Part shown: positions 7,765 to 33,799 of the stretch, piece by piece
Position numbering within the stretch: the first letter of the stretch is position 1
How the letters are laid out: the number at the start of each line of letters is the position of its first letter
From: Pseudomonadota bacterium
GTDB lineage: Bacteria; Pseudomonadota; Gammaproteobacteria; Xanthomonadales; Xanthomonadaceae
Length of the DNA: 42,323 nucleotides
Assembly: GCA_030528565.1 (NCBI GenBank)
Contig: JAUMYP010000016.1
Coordinates: forward strand, 1-42,323
Direction of reading: 5' to 3'
The notes under the pieces: generated by a model
What the model was told of the DNA's origin: nothing
Database searches by the model: none
What the model saw: only the letters and a program-made list of their open reading frames with translations
Program-made: the position numbers and the translations under genes

Positions 7765-8796
7765 TTATTTGACTTGCAGGGTCATTGCCTGCACGCCGCC
7801 GCTTTCGAGCTTTTGTTTTGCTTCGGCGGCTTCGGCGGCGGAGCCATAAGGCCCCATGCGTACCCGGTATACGGTCTTGCCGTTGTTCTGTGCGGACTCT
7901 ACGCGGGCATTCAGGCCCAGTAGCGCGATTCTGGCTTTGACCGCCTCGGCATCACCGCTGGCCGCAAAGGCGCCGGCCTGCACGATATAGGGTGCGCTAC
8001 GCACGGCAGCTTGCGCGGCGCTATTGGCCGCAGCCGCCGGTGCAGAAGCCGCAGCGGGTGTGGCGCTGGCCCTGGTCGGGGAGGGGGCAGGAGGGGGAGC
8101 AAGGTCTCTGCCCGGAGGGCGGGCGGGCGCTTTGTCCGTGGTATGGGTTGCCGCAGGTACCGTTGTGGCGGTTTTTGATGTGGGTGTGGTGGCCGGAGGA
8201 GGCGTGCGCCTTGCCGGTGCAGGCGCAGCCGCTTCAGGAAGCGGGCGTGGTAGCTGCGCATTGGCGGCTGCGATGGCGCGCGCCTGGGCATCGGCAGCCT
8301 GGGCGGCAGCGGCCTGGGCAGCGGACTCATTGCTTGCAGCCGGGGTGTTGGCCTGGGCGGCTTCGGCAGCTGCCTGTTGCTCGCGGCGACGGGCTTCCTC
8401 GCGGCGGCGGGTTTCCTCGCGCTGGATGGCAGCCAGCTGCGCATCGGTCAGGATGACTTCTTCATTGGGCAGCACTTCGTAAAAATCGAAGTCGCGGGTT
8501 TTGGGCGGCGCTGGGCGTGCCGCTTCGCCTTGGCGTTTGGCAGGGGCTGCCGGTGCCGGTTCAAAGGCGGGCGTGCTGGATGCGTCCGGCTGGGGCAGTG
8601 GCTCCGGGCTGGATGGCGCATTGCCGAGACTGAAAAAGCCGGTATTGCCCTCTTTATGGGCGCCGATAAAGCGTGGCGCCAGCAAGATGACCACGATGGT
8701 CAGCAAAACCCCTATCAGCAGCCATGCCCAGCCGGGCATGCTGCTTTGTCGTGCGCTGCTGCGCCGTGCCTGTGATTTTCCGCGACGTGCGGCCAT
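7765..8796 (-). CDS. SPOR-domain membrane protein (FtsN/DedD-like)
   Basis: A 343-residue bitopic inner-membrane protein with a short basic cytoplasmic tail, one membrane helix at 22-41 ('GWAWLLIGVLLTIVVILLAP'), a long Ala/Pro/Glu-rich linker that includes a charged helical segment ('REETRRREEARRREQQAAAEA'), and a C-terminal SPOR domain ('APYIVQAGAFAASGDAEAVK...KTVYRVRMGPY'). SPOR domains bind denuded peptidoglycan at the septum, so a role in division or cell-wall remodelling is likely. GGAG eight bases before the ATG supports the start. It lies 15 bp behind argS, a pairing also seen in related genomes. Confidence 0.85.
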   Translation of the reverse strand: MAARRGKSQARRSSARQSSMPGWAWLLIGVLLTIVVILLAPRFIGAHKEGNTGFFSLGNAPSSPEPLPQPDASSTPAFEPAPAAPAKRQGEAARPAPPKTRDFDFYEVLPNEEVILTDAQLAAIQREETRRREEARRREQQAAAEAAQANTPAASNESAAQAAAAQAADAQARAIAAANAQLPRPLPEAAAPAPARRTPPPATTPTSKTATTVPAATHTTDKAPARPPGRDLAPPPAPSPTRASATPAAASAPAAAANSAAQAAVRSAPYIVQAGAFAASGDAEAVKARIALLGLNARVESAQNNGKTVYRVRMGPYGSAAEAAEAKQKLESGGVQAMTLQVK

Positions 8797-13059: not shown

Positions 13060-15432
13060 ATGAGTGAAAAGAAGTCTTCGTTATCCAAACTCGAGCTGGG
13101 TTCAGTGGAGCAGGCAAGGCCGCTGCTTGTCGTATTGCTGGTATTGCTGGCGGGCTGGCTGATTTTTTTGGGGGGAAAGCAATGGTTAGGCAGCAGCGGC
13201 GAGCAATCGCTGCTGGCCGAGCGCGATGCGCTTGCTGCAGAAGTTGGTCAGCAGCTTGCGCAAATACGCAAAAAAGTTGAAGCCGCAGTCAATACAGACG
13301 AATTGCAGCAGCTATTGACTGTAGACAGTACTCAGCGTGTGGTTGAGCATTTCCAAAAAACACTGCCCGAGGCCAAGGAGGTGCGAATTTATCCGCAGGA
13401 CTTGCAACCTTTCTACCAGCAACTGCCGGAATCGGGCTACGGTCGTTTGGCGGTGGTGGAGGCGTCACTGGTAGAAAGAGAAACGGTAATGCGTATTGGC
13501 CAGGTCGGGGATGGCAAAGCCCTGATGGTTGCAGTGCCGTCGGCAGATGAGAGGGTTGTCTTGGTCGCAATGCCGTTGGCCTCTTTGACTCAAGTGGTGG
13601 CTGCAGCATCGCCGGGCAAAGGGTATTTGGCTGTGCGCCAGGGCCAGAGCAATATTGCCGAGAACGGTGATGCAAGCCTTGCAGATTTTGCCGAGTCGCG
13701 TGCAGTCAAAATTGCAGGAAGCGAATTGAGAGTTGCTGCTGGCTTCAATGCTCAGGATGGTGCCGGGGTATTTGGTCTTGGTGCAACTTCTTCATTGATA
13801 TTTGGCTTTTTATTGTTGGGGATAGGTATCGGGTTGTGGCTGTTGCCCAAACTGCAAGCCAGGAAAGCTGCGGGGGAGGAAGAGCCTGAGCTGTTGACTC
13901 TGGGAGAAATCACAAATGGAGAACAAAGTTTGAATAATCAGGAAGGTGAAAGGGTGTCTGGTAATACACAAACAAATGACGAGACTGCATTACTGGATGA
14001 GTCCGGCCGGATGGAGGCAATGACGGAAATAGCTGCGTTCAAATCCTTGCCATCTGTGGATGGGCTGGATTGCAGCATCTTCCGCGCCTACGACATTCGT
14101 GGCGTGGTCGGCCAGGGTCTGGATGCCGGGGTGGCGCGCGCCATCGGCCAGGCAATCGGCACGCAGATGCACGAGCAAGGTTTGAAGGAAATCGTCATCG
14201 GGCGCGATGGCCGCCTTTCCGGGCCGGAGCTTGCCGCTGGGCTGATGGACGGGCTGCGCGATGCCGGTTGCAAGGTGATTGATATTGGCCTGGCACCGAC
14301 ACCGCTGGTGTATTTCGCGGCCTATCAGTTGCGTGCAGGCTCCTGCGTGGCGGTGACCGGCAGCCATAATCCGCCGGATTACAACGGCTTCAAGATTGTG
14401 CTGGGCGGCGAGACGCTCTCTGGCGAGGCCATCAGGGCGCTGTACGAGCGCATCCGCGGCAACCGCCTGCATATTGCCGATGTGCGCGGCGAAGTGGAAA
14501 CGCGCAGTGTGGCGGACGATTATGTCGGGCGCGTGGCCTCCGACATCCAGATTGCCCGCCCGCTGAAGGTGGTGGTCGATGCCGGCAACGGCGCGGCAGG
14601 CGAGTTGGGGCCGAAGGTGTTGCAGGCTATCGGTGCCGAAGTGATTCCGCTGTACTGCGAGATTGACGGCAACTTCCCCAATCACCACCCCGACCCCAGC
14701 GACCCGCATAACTTGCAGGATTTGATGGCGGCGGTGAAGCAGCGCGGCGCGGATATCGGCATCGCCTTCGATGGCGATGGCGACCGTCTGGGCGTGGTCA
14801 CGCCTGCCGGGCACAATATTTTCCCCGACCGCTTGCTGATGCTGTTTGCTGCCGATGTGCTGGCGCGCCAGCCTGGCGCGATGATTGTGTATGACGTCAA
14901 GTGCACGGGCGCGCTGACGCCGTGGATTCTGCGCCATGGCGGCAGCCCGCTGATGTGGAAGACCGGGCATTCCTTCATCAAGGCCAAGATGCGCGAAACC
15001 GAGGCCGAGCTGGCGGGCGAGATGAGTGGCCACTTCTTCTTCAAGGAACGCTGGTACGGCTTTGATGACGGCATTTACTCGGCCGCGCGCCTTCTGGAAA
15101 TTCTGGCTATCCGCGATGAGGACGCCGATACGGTATTTGCCGGAATCCCCGATGGCATCAGCACCCCGGAGCTGAAAATCCCGGTGGATGACCCGCATGC
15201 CTTCATTGAGCGTTTCGTGGCGGGCAGCCAGTTCCCGGAAGCGCGTCTGACCAGCATTGACGGCGTGCGCGCCGACTGGAGCGACGGCTGGGGGCTGGTG
15301 CGCGCCTCCAATACCACGCCGATTCTGGTGCTGCGTTTCGAGGCGAAAACGCCGGAGGCATTGCAGCGTATCCAGGGGGTGTTCCGCGATGCGCTGCTGC
15401 AACTCGATCCGGGTCTTTCCATTCCGTTCTGA
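13060..15432 (+). CDS. algC: Phosphomannomutase/phosphoglucomutase with long membrane-anchored N-terminal extension
   Basis: This 790-residue protein joins two parts. Residues 1-330 have two membrane helices (about 21-43 and 242-263) enclosing a periplasmic region with a coiled stretch near 52-75, then a polar Asn/Glu-rich linker. Residues 337-785 are a complete PMM/PGM enzyme: phosphoserine loop 'VTGSHNPPDYNG' (Ser435), metal loop 'DGDGDR' (571-576), sugar loop 'GEMSGH' and phosphate loop 'RASNTTP'. It interconverts mannose or glucose 1- and 6-phosphates for LPS and exopolysaccharide precursors. The extension is known in AlgC of pseudomonads and xanthomonads. By eye the first 970 bases are clearly poorer in GC than the enzyme part. 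Confidence 0.92.
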   Translation: MSEKKSSLSKLELGSVEQARPLLVVLLVLLAGWLIFLGGKQWLGSSGEQSLLAERDALAAEVGQQLAQIRKKVEAAVNTDELQQLLTVDSTQRVVEHFQKTLPEAKEVRIYPQDLQPFYQQLPESGYGRLAVVEASLVERETVMRIGQVGDGKALMVAVPSADERVVLVAMPLASLTQVVAAASPGKGYLAVRQGQSNIAENGDASLADFAESRAVKIAGSELRVAAGFNAQDGAGVFGLGATSSLIFGFLLLGIGIGLWLLPKLQARKAAGEEEPELLTLGEITNGEQSLNNQEGERVSGNTQTNDETALLDESGRMEAMTEIAAFKSLPSVDGLDCSIFRAYDIRGVVGQGLDAGVARAIGQAIGTQMHEQGLKEIVIGRDGRLSGPELAAGLMDGLRDAGCKVIDIGLAPTPLVYFAAYQLRAGSCVAVTGSHNPPDYNGFKIVLGGETLSGEAIRALYERIRGNRLHIADVRGEVETRSVADDYVGRVASDIQIARPLKVVVDAGNGAAGELGPKVLQAIGAEVIPLYCEIDGNFPNHHPDPSDPHNLQDLMAAVKQRGADIGIAFDGDGDRLGVVTPAGHNIFPDRLLMLFAADVLARQPGAMIVYDVKCTGALTPWILRHGGSPLMWKTGHSFIKAKMRETEAELAGEMSGHFFFKERWYGFDDGIYSAARLLEILAIRDEDADTVFAGIPDGISTPELKIPVDDPHAFIERFVAGSQFPEARLTSIDGVRADWSDGWGLVRASNTTPILVLRFEAKTPEALQRIQGVFRDALLQLDPGLSIPF

Positions 15433-15435
15433 TAA

Positions 15436-15574
15436 GGAACCTCTGAATATTCAGAGGTTCCTCGCGGGTCATGGAGACCCGCCACGAATCAATCATGCCA
15501 GTGATTGATTCGCGTGAGCCAAGTCCGGACAGGTGCCGGACTTGGCGTGGGCTGGCAACGCCAGGAAGGCGTTG
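15436..15574. repeat. Array of five back-to-back inverted repeats
   Basis: Five unrelated hairpins lie almost end to end between algC and pgk. H1 is 15436-15461, a perfect 26-bp palindrome with no spacer. H2 has a 7-bp stem at 15464-15470/15476-15482. H3 has an 11-bp stem at 15485-15495/15502-15512. H4 has an 11-bp stem at 15518-15528/15536-15546. H5 has a 7-bp stem at 15556-15562/15568-15574. Gaps between hairpins are only 2, 2, 5 and 9 bases and loops are 5-7 bases. There is no T run, so these are not ordinary terminators. pgk starts 41 bp downstream. The element could be a structured leader RNA or a dispersed palindromic repeat. Confidence 0.9.
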
Positions 15575-15615
15575 TTCAGACCTTCCATAATTTCACTGCA
15601 TTCTTAGGAAAAAAC

Positions 15616-16788
15616 ATGAGCATTCTTCGTTTGGGCGATGTTGAGCTGTCTGGCAAGCGGGTACTGATTCGCCAGGATTTGAACGTGCCGGTGGACAATG
15701 GCCGGGTGACTTCCGACCAGCGCATCAACGCATCATTGCCGACCCTCAAAGCCGCGCTTGAAGCCGGTGCGGCGGTAATGGTGATGTCGCATCTGGGCCG
15801 CCCCAAGGAAGGCCAGTGGAGCGAGGCCGATTCGCTGGCGCCGGTGGCCAGGCGGCTTTCGGAACTGCTGGGGCGCGAGGTGCCGCTTGTCAGGGATTAT
15901 CTCGATGGCGTGGATGTGGCGCCGGGGCAAATCGTGCTGCTGGAAAACTGCCGCATGAATGTCGGTGAGAAAGCTGATGACCAGGCGCTCGCCCAAAAAT
16001 ACGCGGCGCTCTGCGATATCTTTGTGATGGATGCTTTCGGCACTGCACACCGCGCCCAGGCTTCCACCCATGGCGTGATTCGCGCCGCCAGGCAGGCTGT
16101 CGGCGGGCCGCTGCTGATGGCAGAACTGGATGCACTGGCGCGTGCGCTGGACAACCCGGCGCGTCCTTTGCTGGCGATTGTCGCTGGCAGCAAGGTCAGC
16201 ACCAAGCTGGAGCTGCTGTCCTCGCTGGTCGGCAAGGTGGACCAATTGATTGTTGGCGGCGGCATTGCCAATACCTTTATCGCCGCAGCCGGTTACCCGG
16301 TGGGCAAATCGCTGATGGAAGCGGATTTGCTCGATACCGCGCGCAAGATTACCGCCGATGCCAGGGCGCGCGGCGCGGAGATTCCGCTGCCGGTGGATGT
16401 GGTGGTCGCCCCGACATTTGCCGCCGATGCCCCGGCCACGGTCAAGGCGGTGGATGCAGTGGGTGCTGACGACATGATTCTCGACATCGGCCCGCAAACT
16501 GCCGCGCAATATGCTGCACTGATTGCCAAGGCCGGTACTGTGGTCTGGAACGGCCCGGTGGGCGTGTTCGAGTTCGACGCCTTCGGCAAGGGTACCGAGG
16601 CGCTGGCGCGCGCCATTGCCGCTTCGTCGGCGTTTTCCATTGCCGGTGGCGGCGATACCCTGGCCGCGGTAGACAAATACGGCATTGCCAAAGAAGTTTC
16701 GTATATTTCCACCGGCGGCGGCGCCTTCCTGGAGTTTCTGGAAGGCAAGGAACTGCCAGCCGTGGCCGCCCTCAAGGCGCGTAGCTGA
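15616..16788 (+). CDS. pgk: Phosphoglycerate kinase
   Basis: Pgk transfers phosphate from 1,3-bisphosphoglycerate to ADP in glycolysis and acts in reverse in gluconeogenesis. The ATG at 15616 is chosen because AGGA lies about six bases upstream; the frame is open to 15505, but that part is the hairpin array. The 390-residue product has '[14 protein letters not shown]' near the N-terminus, 'MSHLGRP', '[12 protein letters not shown]', 'VGGGIANTF', '[10 protein letters not shown]' and the nucleotide loop '[13 protein letters not shown]'. Length is standard. The following DUF302 gene overlaps its stop codon by one base. Confidence 0.96.
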
Positions 16789-17314: not shown

Positions 17315-18370
17315 ATGAGTTACAGCAAGCCCTGGCTGAGTGTTGCCGAACAGCTTGAATTGCTGGAAAAGCGGGGAATGGCGGTTGCTGACAAGACGCG
17401 TGCGCAAGATTATCTGAAGCGTATTGGCTATTACCGCCTGAGTGGTTATTGGTACGCCTTTCGTGAGCGCGACAAGGCCAGGCAGGTGCAGGATAGTTTT
17501 CGGCCTGGAACCCGTTTTCAGGATGTCGTGAATTTGTATGTATTCGACAAGCAGCTGCGCATGCTAACCATGGATGCGCTAGAGCGCATCGAAATTGCAC
17601 TGCGGGTGGATATTTCCCATAGTCTTGGCAAGCTGGATGCCTTTGCCTATCTCAACCCGGCACTTTTTGACGATAGCTTCAGCCGCAAACTGGATGCCAA
17701 CAGCGGTACCACGAAACATCACGACTGGCTTGGCAAGCATGCACGCCTGATAAGTCGCTCCAAAGAGGCGTTTGTACACCATAACCGCAAAAAATACGGT
17801 TTGCCGCTAGCCATCTGGGTAGCGTGTGAAGTCTGGGACTTTGGCGCCTTGTCGCAGCTGTTTGCGGGGATGCGTCGTAAAGAGCAGAACACCATTGCGG
17901 AAAAATACGGTCTGCTCAATGTCCCGGAGAGTGGCGAAGTGTTTGCCTCATGGCTGCGCAGCCTCAACTATCTGCGCAACGTCTGTGCACATCATGGCCG
18001 TTTGTGGAACCGCAATATCATCGACCAGCCGCGCCTGCCAGCGGCGCAGCTTTTGCCCTGGGTTGCGACTTTTGAGCAAGATAAGCATGCCCGGGCGCGC
18101 TGCTTCTTGCTTTTGATGATTGCCGGACATTTATTGCGTGTGGTCAACCCGCAATCAAGCTGGCCGCAGCGCATGAAAAAGCATTTGCAAAATTTTCCCG
18201 ACCTGTCAGATGTGGGGCTGAATCTTTACGGTATGGGCGCCCCCGATGGCTGGGAGCAAATTTGGCAAGCAGGCAAAAAGAACCCCTCCGAGATGCTTTG
18301 CGATGCAAGGCAGGGTGGAGGGGCCGTGTTGGGCGCGATTTTAACTGATACTCCTGCCAATCACAACTGA
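17315..18370 (+). CDS. Abi_2 family (AbiD/AbiF-type) abortive infection protein
   Basis: A 351-residue Abi_2 (PF07751-like) protein: 'SVAEQLELLEKRGMAV' and 'YLKRIGYYRLSGYWYAFR' at the N-terminus, 'LYVFDKQLRMLTMDALERIEIALR' (74-97), 'LPLAIWVACEVWDFGALSQLF' and 'SLNYLRNVCAHHGRLWNR', in which R221-x4-H226 is a HEPN ribonuclease motif. Such proteins cause abortive phage infection, probably by RNA cleavage. GGGGGATAAGGAA before the ATG gives a Shine-Dalgarno. By eye its GC is lower than that of its glycolytic neighbours, so it was probably acquired. The last 30 residues look unconserved and include a hairpin (CCCCTCC at 18283-18289 with GGAGGGG at 18317-18323), as if the frame now reads through an old terminator. 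Only 15 bp separate it from pyk. Confidence 0.85.
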   Translation: MSYSKPWLSVAEQLELLEKRGMAVADKTRAQDYLKRIGYYRLSGYWYAFRERDKARQVQDSFRPGTRFQDVVNLYVFDKQLRMLTMDALERIEIALRVDISHSLGKLDAFAYLNPALFDDSFSRKLDANSGTTKHHDWLGKHARLISRSKEAFVHHNRKKYGLPLAIWVACEVWDFGALSQLFAGMRRKEQNTIAEKYGLLNVPESGEVFASWLRSLNYLRNVCAHHGRLWNRNIIDQPRLPAAQLLPWVATFEQDKHARARCFLLLMIAGHLLRVVNPQSSWPQRMKKHLQNFPDLSDVGLNLYGMGAPDGWEQIWQAGKKNPSEMLCDARQGGGAVLGAILTDTPANHN

Positions 18371-18385
18371 AAGAGTTCATATTTC

Positions 18386-19825
18386 ATGTTTGAATACCGT
18401 CGCCGCACCCGCATTCTCGCCACCCTGGGGCCTGCCTCCGATGCCGCAGGTGTACTGGATGCCATGATTCAGGCCGGGGTGGATTGCGTGCGGCTGAACT
18501 TCTCGCACGGCAGTGCCGATGAGCACCGCCAGCGCGCGGCAGCGGTGCGCGAAGCCGCGCAGCGCCTGGAACGAGAAATCGGCATCCTGGTGGATTTGCC
18601 CGGCCCGAAAATCCGCATCGAACGCTTTGCCGCAGGCTCGGTGGAACTCAAGGCCGGGGCACGCTTTGATTTGCTGGCCGAAGCCGATGCGCCGCCCGGC
18701 GATGAGCAGGCGGTTGGCGTGGCCTATCTGGGGCTGCCGGGCGATGTGGCCGCAGGCGATGTATTGCTGCTTGATGATGGCCTGGTGCAATTGCAGGTGA
18801 TGGCGGTGGACGGCACACGTATCCAGACGCAAGTGCTGAATGATGCGCAGCTCTCCGACCGCAAGGGGCTGAACAAGCTGGGCGGCGGGCTGTCGCTGGG
18901 GGCAGTGACCGCACGCGACCGCGAGCTGATTGCGCTGGCCGCGGAAATCGGCGCCGACTTCATCGCCGTGTCTTTCGTGCGCGATGCCGCCGATATTGAT
19001 GAGGCGCGAAAAATCGCCGTTGAGCATGGCAGCCAGGCGGCGCTGGTCGCCAAAATCGAGCGCGCCGAGGCGATTGGAAACTTGCAGGACATCATCGCCG
19101 CTGCCGATGTGGTGATGGTCGCGCGCGGCGACCTGGGCGTGGAAGTGGGCGATGCCGAGCTGCCCGGCTTGCAGAAAAAAATCATCAGCGAAACGCTGGC
19201 AGGCAACAAAGTGGTGATTACCGCCACGCAGATGTTGCAGTCAATGGTGGACAGCCCGCAGCCGACCCGCGCCGAAGTGCTGGATGTGGCCAATGCAGTG
19301 ATTGATGGCACCGATGCGGTGATGCTTTCGGCAGAAACCGCTGCCGGGCGCTTTCCGGTGGCCGCGGTGGCGGCGATGGCGCGCATCTGCATGGGCGCGG
19401 AACGGCAGTTCGAGCGCGATACCGATTACGAGGCGGCGCCGCGCGGCCTTCAGCGCGTGGACCAGGCCATCGCCATGGCGACCATGTTCCTGACCGAGCA
19501 TATGGACGTGGCCGCCATCATCGCCATGACCGAATCCGGCGGCACGGCGCGGTTCCTGTCCCGGTTCCGCGCGCAGGTGCCGATTCATGCGTTCTCGCGT
19601 CACCCTGGCGCACGCCGGCAGATGCGCCTGATGCGCGATGTATTCCCCATCGCCTTCGACAGCCGTGGCATGTATCAGGGCGACCTGGCGCGCGCGGCGA
19701 TTGCACACTTGCGCGATGCCGGCCTGTTGCAGACTGGCAAGCGGGTGCTGTTCACCTGTGGCGACAACATGGAAAAGCTCGGCGCGACCAATACCCTGCG
19801 GATTCTGGAAGTACCGGGAAACTGA
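18386..19825 (+). CDS. pyk: Pyruvate kinase
   Basis: Pyruvate kinase makes pyruvate and ATP from phosphoenolpyruvate. The 479-residue product has the full family pattern: 'RRTRILATLGPAS' at the N-terminus, 'VDCVRLNFSHG', the B domain from about residue 70, 'VSFVRDAADI', the signature 'VAKIERAEAIGNL', 'VMVARGDLGVEV', 'ITATQMLQSMVDSPQPTRAEV' split by the active-site loop, and a C-terminal regulatory domain ending 'NTLRILEVPGN'. It is similar in size to PykA-type enzymes. It lies between the Abi gene and aldolase. Confidence 0.95.
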   Translation: MFEYRRRTRILATLGPASDAAGVLDAMIQAGVDCVRLNFSHGSADEHRQRAAAVREAAQRLEREIGILVDLPGPKIRIERFAAGSVELKAGARFDLLAEADAPPGDEQAVGVAYLGLPGDVAAGDVLLLDDGLVQLQVMAVDGTRIQTQVLNDAQLSDRKGLNKLGGGLSLGAVTARDRELIALAAEIGADFIAVSFVRDAADIDEARKIAVEHGSQAALVAKIERAEAIGNLQDIIAAADVVMVARGDLGVEVGDAELPGLQKKIISETLAGNKVVITATQMLQSMVDSPQPTRAEVLDVANAVIDGTDAVMLSAETAAGRFPVAAVAAMARICMGAERQFERDTDYEAAPRGLQRVDQAIAMATMFLTEHMDVAAIIAMTESGGTARFLSRFRAQVPIHAFSRHPGARRQMRLMRDVFPIAFDSRGMYQGDLARAAIAHLRDAGLLQTGKRVLFTCGDNMEKLGATNTLRILEVPGN

Positions 19826-32686: not shown

Positions 32687-33799
32687 ATGCGCCGGCGGCT
32701 GAGCGTCGTACAACTTTTGCCTGCGCTGCAATCGGGCGGCGTTGAGCGTTCCACCCTGGAAATCGCCCAAGCGCTGGTCGAGGCCGGACACCGCGCCATC
32801 GTGGTGTCGGCAGGCGGGCGGTTGCTACCGCAGTTGCAGGCCGCAGGTGGCGAACATATCCGGCTGGATATCGGCAAAAAATCGCTGCTGACCTTGACTC
32901 GGGTGGGCGCGCTGCGCCGCATTCTGGCCGATAGCGGCGCCGATATCGTCCATGCCCGATCACGCCTGCCGGCCTGGATTGGGCACTGGGCGCTTGCCGG
33001 GATGCCCGCCGGCAAGCGCCCGCGTTGGGTCACCACCATGCATGGGCTGAATTCACCCTCACGCTACAGCCGCATCATGGCCAGTGGCGAGCGGGTGATT
33101 TGTGTCTCCAATACCGTGCGCGAATACTTGTTGCAGCACTATCCGGAGACTGACCCCGGCAAACTGCGGGTGATTGCGCGCGGTATCCACCCGGCAGGCT
33201 TTCCGCGTCGTCAGGCTGTGCATCACGCCGCGCGTGCAGAAATCGCCCGGCAATATCCGCAGCTTGCGGGCACGGCGCCCTTGCTGGTTTTGCCAGGGCG
33301 CGGCACCCGCCTGAAAGGCCATGAAGATGCGCTGAAATTGCTGGCTGCCGTGCGTGCACAAGGCTTGGATGCCCGGTTATGGATGCCCGGTGCACGTGAA
33401 GCCGGGCGTGAGGCATATCTGGCGGAACTGCAAACACAGGCGGTGCGGCTGGGCGTGGCCGATGCGGTGGCGATGACCGCGCCGACCAGCGCCATTGCAG
33501 AGGCCTATGCCATGGCCGACCTGGTCTTGCAGCTTTCCCGCAAGCCCGAGGCGTTTGGCCGCACCGTCGTCGAGGCGCTCAGCGTCGGCGTTCCGGTACT
33601 GGGCTGGGCGCATGGCGGCGTGGGCGAGCTGCTGGCCGAGCTACAGCCCGAAGGCGCAGTACTGCCATTCGATACCCAAGCACTGGCGGCGCGCGCCCTG
33701 CAACTGCTTCACGCTCCACCCCCGCCGCCATTTACCATGCCCTATAGCCTGCAAGCGATGCAGCAGGCCACGCTTGCGGTCTATGAAGAACTTGCATGA
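32687..33799 (+). CDS. GT4-family glycosyltransferase
   Basis: A 370-residue GT-B fold transferase. The N-terminal domain begins 'VQLLPALQSGGVERSTLEIAQALVEAGH' (the Gly-rich acceptor loop of GT4), with 'MHGLNSPSRYS' and 'VICVSNTVREYL' in the middle. The C-terminal donor domain has 'LPGRGTRLKGHEDALKLLAA', 'LSRKPEAFGRTVVEALSVG' with the family's E-x7-E, and 'WAHGGVGELLA'. It most likely adds a sugar to LPS core or a surface glycan, since a ligase-like gene overlaps its end (ATGA) and a lipid A acyltransferase is next. Donor and acceptor are unknown. Confidence 0.9.
   Translation: MRRRLSVVQLLPALQSGGVERSTLEIAQALVEAGHRAIVVSAGGRLLPQLQAAGGEHIRLDIGKKSLLTLTRVGALRRILADSGADIVHARSRLPAWIGHWALAGMPAGKRPRWVTTMHGLNSPSRYSRIMASGERVICVSNTVREYLLQHYPETDPGKLRVIARGIHPAGFPRRQAVHHAARAEIARQYPQLAGTAPLLVLPGRGTRLKGHEDALKLLAAVRAQGLDARLWMPGAREAGREAYLAELQTQAVRLGVADAVAMTAPTSAIAEAYAMADLVLQLSRKPEAFGRTVVEALSVGVPVLGWAHGGVGELLAELQPEGAVLPFDTQALAARALQLLHAPPPPPFTMPYSLQAMQQATLAVYEELA

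Follow-up and report, generated by a model that had tools for sequence, protein, structure and literature searches.

What is the block of five hairpins that lies between an algC-type gene and pgk in the window (the whole stretch of 42,323 nt analysed), and does it matter as DNA or as RNA? All five inverted repeats that an earlier note had reported at 15436..15574 were recovered. H1 (15436..15461, plus strand) pairs the left terminal repeat with a reverse complement of itself and forms a perfect palindrome of 28 nt, with arms at 15435-15448 and 15449-15462. H2 (15464..15482, plus strand) has a stem of 7 bp (15464-15470/15476-15482) and the loop AUGGA (15471-15475) on a C-G closing pair, and represents putative CsrA/RsmA-type site 1. 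H3 (15483..15514, plus strand) has 11 bp (15485-15495/15502-15512) and is capped by GCCA in the window and by GYAA in many relatives. H4 (15518..15546, plus strand) also has 11 bp (15518-15528/15536-15546); its loop is ACAGGUG in the window, ACAUGUG in many relatives within the order, and of different sequence across much of the class sample. H5 (15547..15585, plus strand) is nested. Its inner stem of 7 bp (15556-15562/15568-15574), with loop AGGAA (15563-15567) as putative CsrA/RsmA-type site 2, was described correctly before, but an imperfect outer stem that includes the right terminal repeat and extends to 15585 in the predicted fold had been overlooked. Predicted hairpins are spaced 0-3 nt apart in the window copy.

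The RNA fold of 15430-15590 has an energy of -92.4 kcal/mol versus -50.7 +/- 4.0 kcal/mol for 200 shuffled sequences (z -10.45), and none of the 200 folded as well. The complementary strand folds as strongly in the same shuffle test (z -12.35). Five hairpins with stems of at least 7 bp and loops of 3-8 nt in 140 bp occur within the window in this element only, and the next densest places have two. The shuffle test and this density agree with the earlier statement that such packing is not due to chance. The further statement that nothing else in the window is alike holds for hairpin density but not for raw folding energy, by which two other places are lower. On a 50-nt grid, 4 out of 844 segments of 150 nt fold lower than the best grid segment here (15401-15550, which cuts across the element), and they lie at 8151-8400 and 32901-33100 (near 8200 and 32900).

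The element and its insertion beside pgk

The hairpins belong to an element of 151 bp at 15436..15586 (plus strand, taken as the RNA strand), delimited by BLAST copies, its ends, and an empty site. The left terminal inverted repeat GGAACCTCTGAA (15436..15447, plus strand) matches the right one, TTCAGACCTTCC (15575..15586, plus strand), at 10 of 12 positions, and most of the aligned copies terminate in GGARCCTCTGAA and TTCAGACCYTCC. Target-site duplications ATAA flank it at 15432..15435, overlapping the final base of the algC stop codon, and at 15587..15590. Both neighbouring genes are outside the element: an algC-type phosphomannomutase/phosphoglucomutase gene (13060..15432, plus strand; best NCBIfam NF046027 with 489 bits, under the cut-off of 600) and pgk (15616..16788, plus strand; NF010569, under a cut-off that is set for a longer fusion). 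There is no room for a transposase in 151 bp, and no gene is coded on the element. In the sister species G009 the site is empty and reads TCTGATGATTTC where the window reads TCTGATAA-element-ATAATTTC; because of this empty site and the ATAA duplication, the element is recognized as an insertion at this locus. Among 11 same-genus pgk loci, the element is present only in the own genome (G000) and, at the same place, in G005. Apart from the empty site of G009, inspection by eye of 330 nt at the other eight loci, several of which have non-algC upstream sequence, revealed no such element.

The own genome has four dispersed copies with 81-100% identity in BLAST, and 9 of the 60 genomes searched in this way carry the element, own genome counted. 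An exact 4-bp flanking repeat was found in 14 of 33 hand-bounded copies; this set omits the array slice L050, counts L009 and L010, which are one insertion in two species, and has truncated copies among those with no repeat. In 29 of 110 rows the two flanks carry the same YTAR 4-mer (four copies being present in both component sets), as compared to about nine by shuffling. No plasmid or phage record matched the window copy in BLAST at E 1e-3, and the single pattern match on viral contigs, L135, was judged to be chance. The element in the window is a non-autonomous MITE that has inserted where algC ends; its ends are of IS5 type and its target duplications 4 bp long. Among the options of the earlier note, the correct one is a copy of a dispersed multi-palindrome repeat, as the search of the own and related genomes that the note had called for revealed.

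A cis-acting structured leader controlling pgk was another of those options. It would suit the position of the element, which lies on the pgk strand, ends 29 nt ahead of the start codon of that gene and is retained there in G005, but the empty site in G009, the target duplication of an insertion, and dispersed copies in random orientation to genes make it very improbable. As the origin of the element, a pgk leader is rejected on the grounds of the empty site and the dispersed copies, although a local effect on pgk could exist. Orientation was counted by crude ORF calling on 138 elements, some copies of which are in more than one set; 66 were classifiable within 400 bp and 16 lie inside an ORF. 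The upstream gene is on the strand of the element in 33 of the 66, which argues against a general fixed cis role. Farther downstream in the window, between the pgk/DUF302 genes (DUF302 being the name given in the earlier note) and a putative pyruvate kinase frame at 18386-19825, 17315-18370 (plus strand) encodes an Abi-like protein of 351 aa (PF07751 Abi_2, E 9.7e-58).

IS5-family partner in G037

The end sequence, with one mismatch at most, occurs 105 times in genome G037, 57 and 48 times on the two strands. Among the matches listed, at least 14 end pairs are spaced 1213-1223 bp, like an IS of 1.2 kb. Two of these pairs were read and have matching ends and duplications CTAA and CTAG. One of the two encodes a transposase of 342 aa, assigned to the IS5 family by NF033581 (325 bits) and with PF01609 and PF05598 domains. 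A covariance model of the H2-H5 hairpins (R1) has no match in either IS locus. G037 contig C1 has many more sites with the variant end GGAGGGTCTGAATAA; two that were read, L153 and L154, are element copies, one internally shortened and one tandem.

In the genus of the window, an IS partner was looked for and not found, seven PF01609 places being taken as search hits only. The four end-like sites in G000 include no IS pair: three belong to element copies, and the fourth, in C69, has no element within the 300 nt examined. At E 1e-10, five of six genomes of the genus have nothing similar to the G037 transposase, and G009 has a match of 29% identity. The copies in this genus may be relics or users of another transposase.

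A rival reading is an ordinary palindromic MITE. Its hairpins would have no RNA role and would be kept for transposition or by template-switch correction of imperfect palindromes in replication, with both arms changing together. The matching IS ends in G037, the origin of H1 and of the H5 outer stem from the terminal repeats, and the random orientation to genes all fit, and template switching would yield near-perfect stems. This reading is nevertheless considered rather unlikely in view of the strand, loop, and distribution data given below.

Distribution of the H2-H5 core

When named genomes were scanned with a pattern, 72 stretches matched, of which 63 were judged real by eye and nine were discarded as chance (L068, L071, L078, L089, L096, L097, L121, L126, and L132). 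Carriers in Lysobacterales are Rhodanobacter, Dyella, Arenimonas, Mizugakiibacter, and MAGs; others are Halothiobacillus, Microbulbifer, a Moraxellaceae MAG, a Pseudomonadales MAG, and other gammaproteobacterial or unplaced proteobacterial MAGs. Outer ends vary (GGRA...TCTGA type, CAGGCTGTTGAAAAAC type, and others), while the order H1-H5 recurs. With R1 at a threshold of E 1e-4, and the own genome included in every sample count, the core was found in 87 of 299 genomes and 39 of 85 genera of the order and in 32 of 274 genomes and 27 of 222 genera of the class. In the phylum sample, it was found in 37 of 249 genomes and 18 of 132 genera, and 34 of these 37 genomes are outside the class, with class membership of carriers inferred from named records. 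Because just 12-14 candidates were scored per genome, element copy numbers are lower bounds, and the stricter filters in the R1 search drop weak matches.

Several loci have tandem units: five of 127 bp in L044, three in L047, and three each in L154 and L204. In G037, L050 has at 329-972 a 130-bp unit repeated five times with 98% identity, with an H2-H4 core and other ends. By motif count there are ten sites in this array, and it is possibly a domesticated sponge locus. In L016, L023 (G029), L083, and L120, the H5 side is swapped for longer, different hairpins, which suggests exchange of end modules.

Covariation and the probable strand of the RNA

Alignment A2 consists of 32 sequences picked for diversity from 81 cores that came from BLAST and pattern searches rather than from the model. 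In it, 91.3% of cells are paired and two-sided changes occur in 29 of 35 pairs, which is the result of the check for compensatory changes proposed in the earlier note. The covariation score is 0.494, versus 0.161 in shuffled alignments and 0.095 at most in slid structures. Alignment A3 (70 model hits, all rows, six of them from the opposite strand) has such changes in 34 of 35 pairs and a score of 0.759, and A4 (10 hits at nine additional loci, of which seven are outside the class) in 29 of 35 pairs with a score of 0.606, both being biased toward the model used to find them. The rows of these alignments are related, and shuffle tests therefore overstate significance. Covariation in A2, A3, and A4 supports the suspicion that the stems matter. 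Comparison of the alignments shows the H2-H5 interior to be a conserved fold with loops of fixed type across many genera of the class and also beyond it. That four different stems keep their order and spacing in the class and beyond is left unexplained by an ordinary palindromic MITE.

An excess of G-U pairs names the RNA strand, because each such pair becomes an A-C mismatch when the opposite strand is read. With one element per genome, A3 has 72 G-U versus 29 A-C cells, and 37 genomes versus 9 (p 4e-5). Anchoring free of energies, on 116 rows with redundant copies, gave 86 G-U versus 42 A-C and 46 loci versus 13, with H2 in the opposite direction (15 G-U and 28 A-C) in this redundant count. 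In a recount per organism made with no model (one vote each, shared copies dropped, and H2 restricted to its 7 bp), there are 35 groups versus 8 (p 4e-5), and G-U/A-C values are 31.2/4.6 in H3, 12.4/9.0 in H2, and 4.1/2.4 in H4. A2 has 38 G-U versus 30 A-C over all hairpins and 26/9 in H3. The asymmetry comes mostly from H3, where the G-U excess is also not explained by hairpins kept as DNA only. It points to selection on RNA of the plus strand.

Loops and the CsrA/RsmA motif

Conservation of the H2 and H4 loops in the pattern-scan set is not evidence, because the scan pattern fixed both loops; the H5 loop lay outside the pattern. Loops were counted on one element per genome, the best, in 59 distinct model-found genomes, after removal of six opposite-strand rows and five second copies from the 70 rows of A3; four of these genomes are also in A2. 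The H2 loop is ANGGA in 55 of 59 genomes. At its N position, T was found 30 times, G 15, A 7, and C 7, and the following G, G, and A are conserved in 58, 58, and 56 genomes. In A2, N and GGA are equally invariant (32 of 32), and for this reason R1 favoured both alike. GGA is in the H5 loop in 52 of 59 genomes (as A(N)GGA in 46) and absent from it in seven, in the H4 loop in two, and in the H3 loop in none. In A4, 9 of 10 H2 loops are ANGGA. Persistent ANGGA/AGGA loops beside a drifting N and drifting stems are not explained by an ordinary palindromic MITE.

The high-affinity form for CsrA/RsmE is an ANGGAX hexaloop directly on a stem, and RsmZ SL3/SL4 has a pentaloop with no N, according to PMC4005645. 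Consensus sequences (A/U)CANGGANG(U/A) and RUACARGGAUGU are given in PMC6692469. As stated in PMC4333381, CsrA motifs are usually paired, and TwoAYGGAY, with two such matches, was proposed to bind CsrA. In the predicted fold of the window copy, AUGGA in H2, a pentaloop with no X, and AGGAA in H5 are two A(N)GGA sites. Loops of H2 (ANGGAN) and H5 (AGGAN or ANGGAN) are inferred to be putative sites for dimeric CsrA/RsmA.

The RNA fold could also matter for a partner other than CsrA, such as processing by RNase III or RNase E, binding of ribosomes to the AGGA loops, or base pairing of the H3 and H4 loops with another RNA. Covariation and strand asymmetry require just some RNA role, and the loops of H3 and H4, whose caps are also kept within lineages, are conserved to some degree that CsrA does not explain. 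On the other hand, the two widely kept loops closely match the published CsrA/RsmA form, including the free N, and the sites are paired, as a dimer would predict. Such a partner is regarded as improbable, more so than hairpins of purely DNA function.

Host genomes and proposed mechanism

The own genome encodes CsrA (PF02599, E 1.1e-24). A csrA gene was found in 31 of 32 element-bearing genomes versus 204 of 242 of the rest in the class sample (Fisher p 0.06), and in 36 of 37 versus 122 of 212 in the phylum sample (Fisher p 4e-7). This association follows phylogeny, which confounds it, and within the class it is weak. Carriers G416 and G806 have no csrA, and each has relatives within its genus that do. 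Genome G704 has nine csrA matches together with the element (10 matches).

A consensus scan of 15300-15700 revealed neither a promoter nor a terminator within the window copy, and the one terminator-like site, 15402-15414, is inside algC. With neither signal and with hairpins only 0-3 nt apart, the RNA probably comes from read-through. More probably than not, the element is a MITE with a conserved plus-strand RNA fold and putative CsrA/RsmA-binding loops, transcribed by read-through. Read-through from a host gene would produce the plus-strand RNA of the element, and the loops of H2 and H5 in this RNA would bind CsrA/RsmA. One outcome could be a CsrA decoy, with a dose growing with copy number and tandem units; in another, the host transcript would be shielded by CsrA on the element. 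As for how selection at the RNA level could act on a gene-less MITE, harm at insertion sites may be selected against, or titration of CsrA may also affect the transposase or host genes.

Relation to known elements and significance

Like IS5-family MITEs, the element is short and has terminal inverted repeats, 4-bp duplications that are often YTAR, and ends in common with the IS5-family IS of G037. It is unlike them in its interior, a covarying four-hairpin core common to elements with different ends. The MITE type itself is known, and the new part is this interior. The CsrA/RsmA-sequestering sRNAs CsrB, RsmZ, and RsmU are RNA genes at set loci. The element resembles them in having two or more A(N)GGAX loops on stems, of the loop types of RsmZ SL2-SL4, but differs in being dispersed, transposable, and with no promoter or terminator detected in the window copy. 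REP/BIME and ERIC-type repeats are likewise intergenic, dispersed, and palindromic; the element differs in its IS5-type ends, duplications, and five distinct stems. TwoAYGGAY (RF01731), described for Clostridia in PMC4333381, differs from it, as the element has five hairpins and transposon ends.

Rfam cmscan of 15300-15800 in the window, with E up to 5, gave no RF01731 and two sub-threshold hits that are not relatives. At gathering score, no family for the element and no RF01731 were found at 5 and 12 further loci; a tRNA match in L101 is not a relative of the element. No description of the element family was recognised in the open-access PMC literature, which covers few subscription papers. 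Structured MITE transcripts and sRNAs derived from MITEs are described in PMC10969869, in the main text of which CsrA does not appear, and the Rfam 12 paper mentions MITEs and CsrA separately (PMC4383904). For sequenced Xanthomonas genomes, PMC7694677 reports no CsrB/RsmX/Y/Z homologue and one genus-limited sRNA, RsmU.

Tentatively, the copies might together represent a transposon-borne family of CsrA/RsmA-binding RNA, with one core, two putative Csr sites, at least two end types, occurrence in Gammaproteobacteria and beyond, and CsrB-like tandem arrays. If true, the Csr network would have a mobile layer and Lysobacterales a candidate source of RsmA sponges, and the element is a concrete candidate for the missing RsmA-sequestering RNAs. 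Even if CsrA is not involved, a transposable element with covarying stems and fixed loops across many genera is unusual. If the loops do bind CsrA, selfish DNA would spread sites for a global regulator, and each insertion would be either a decoy or a newly regulated transcript.
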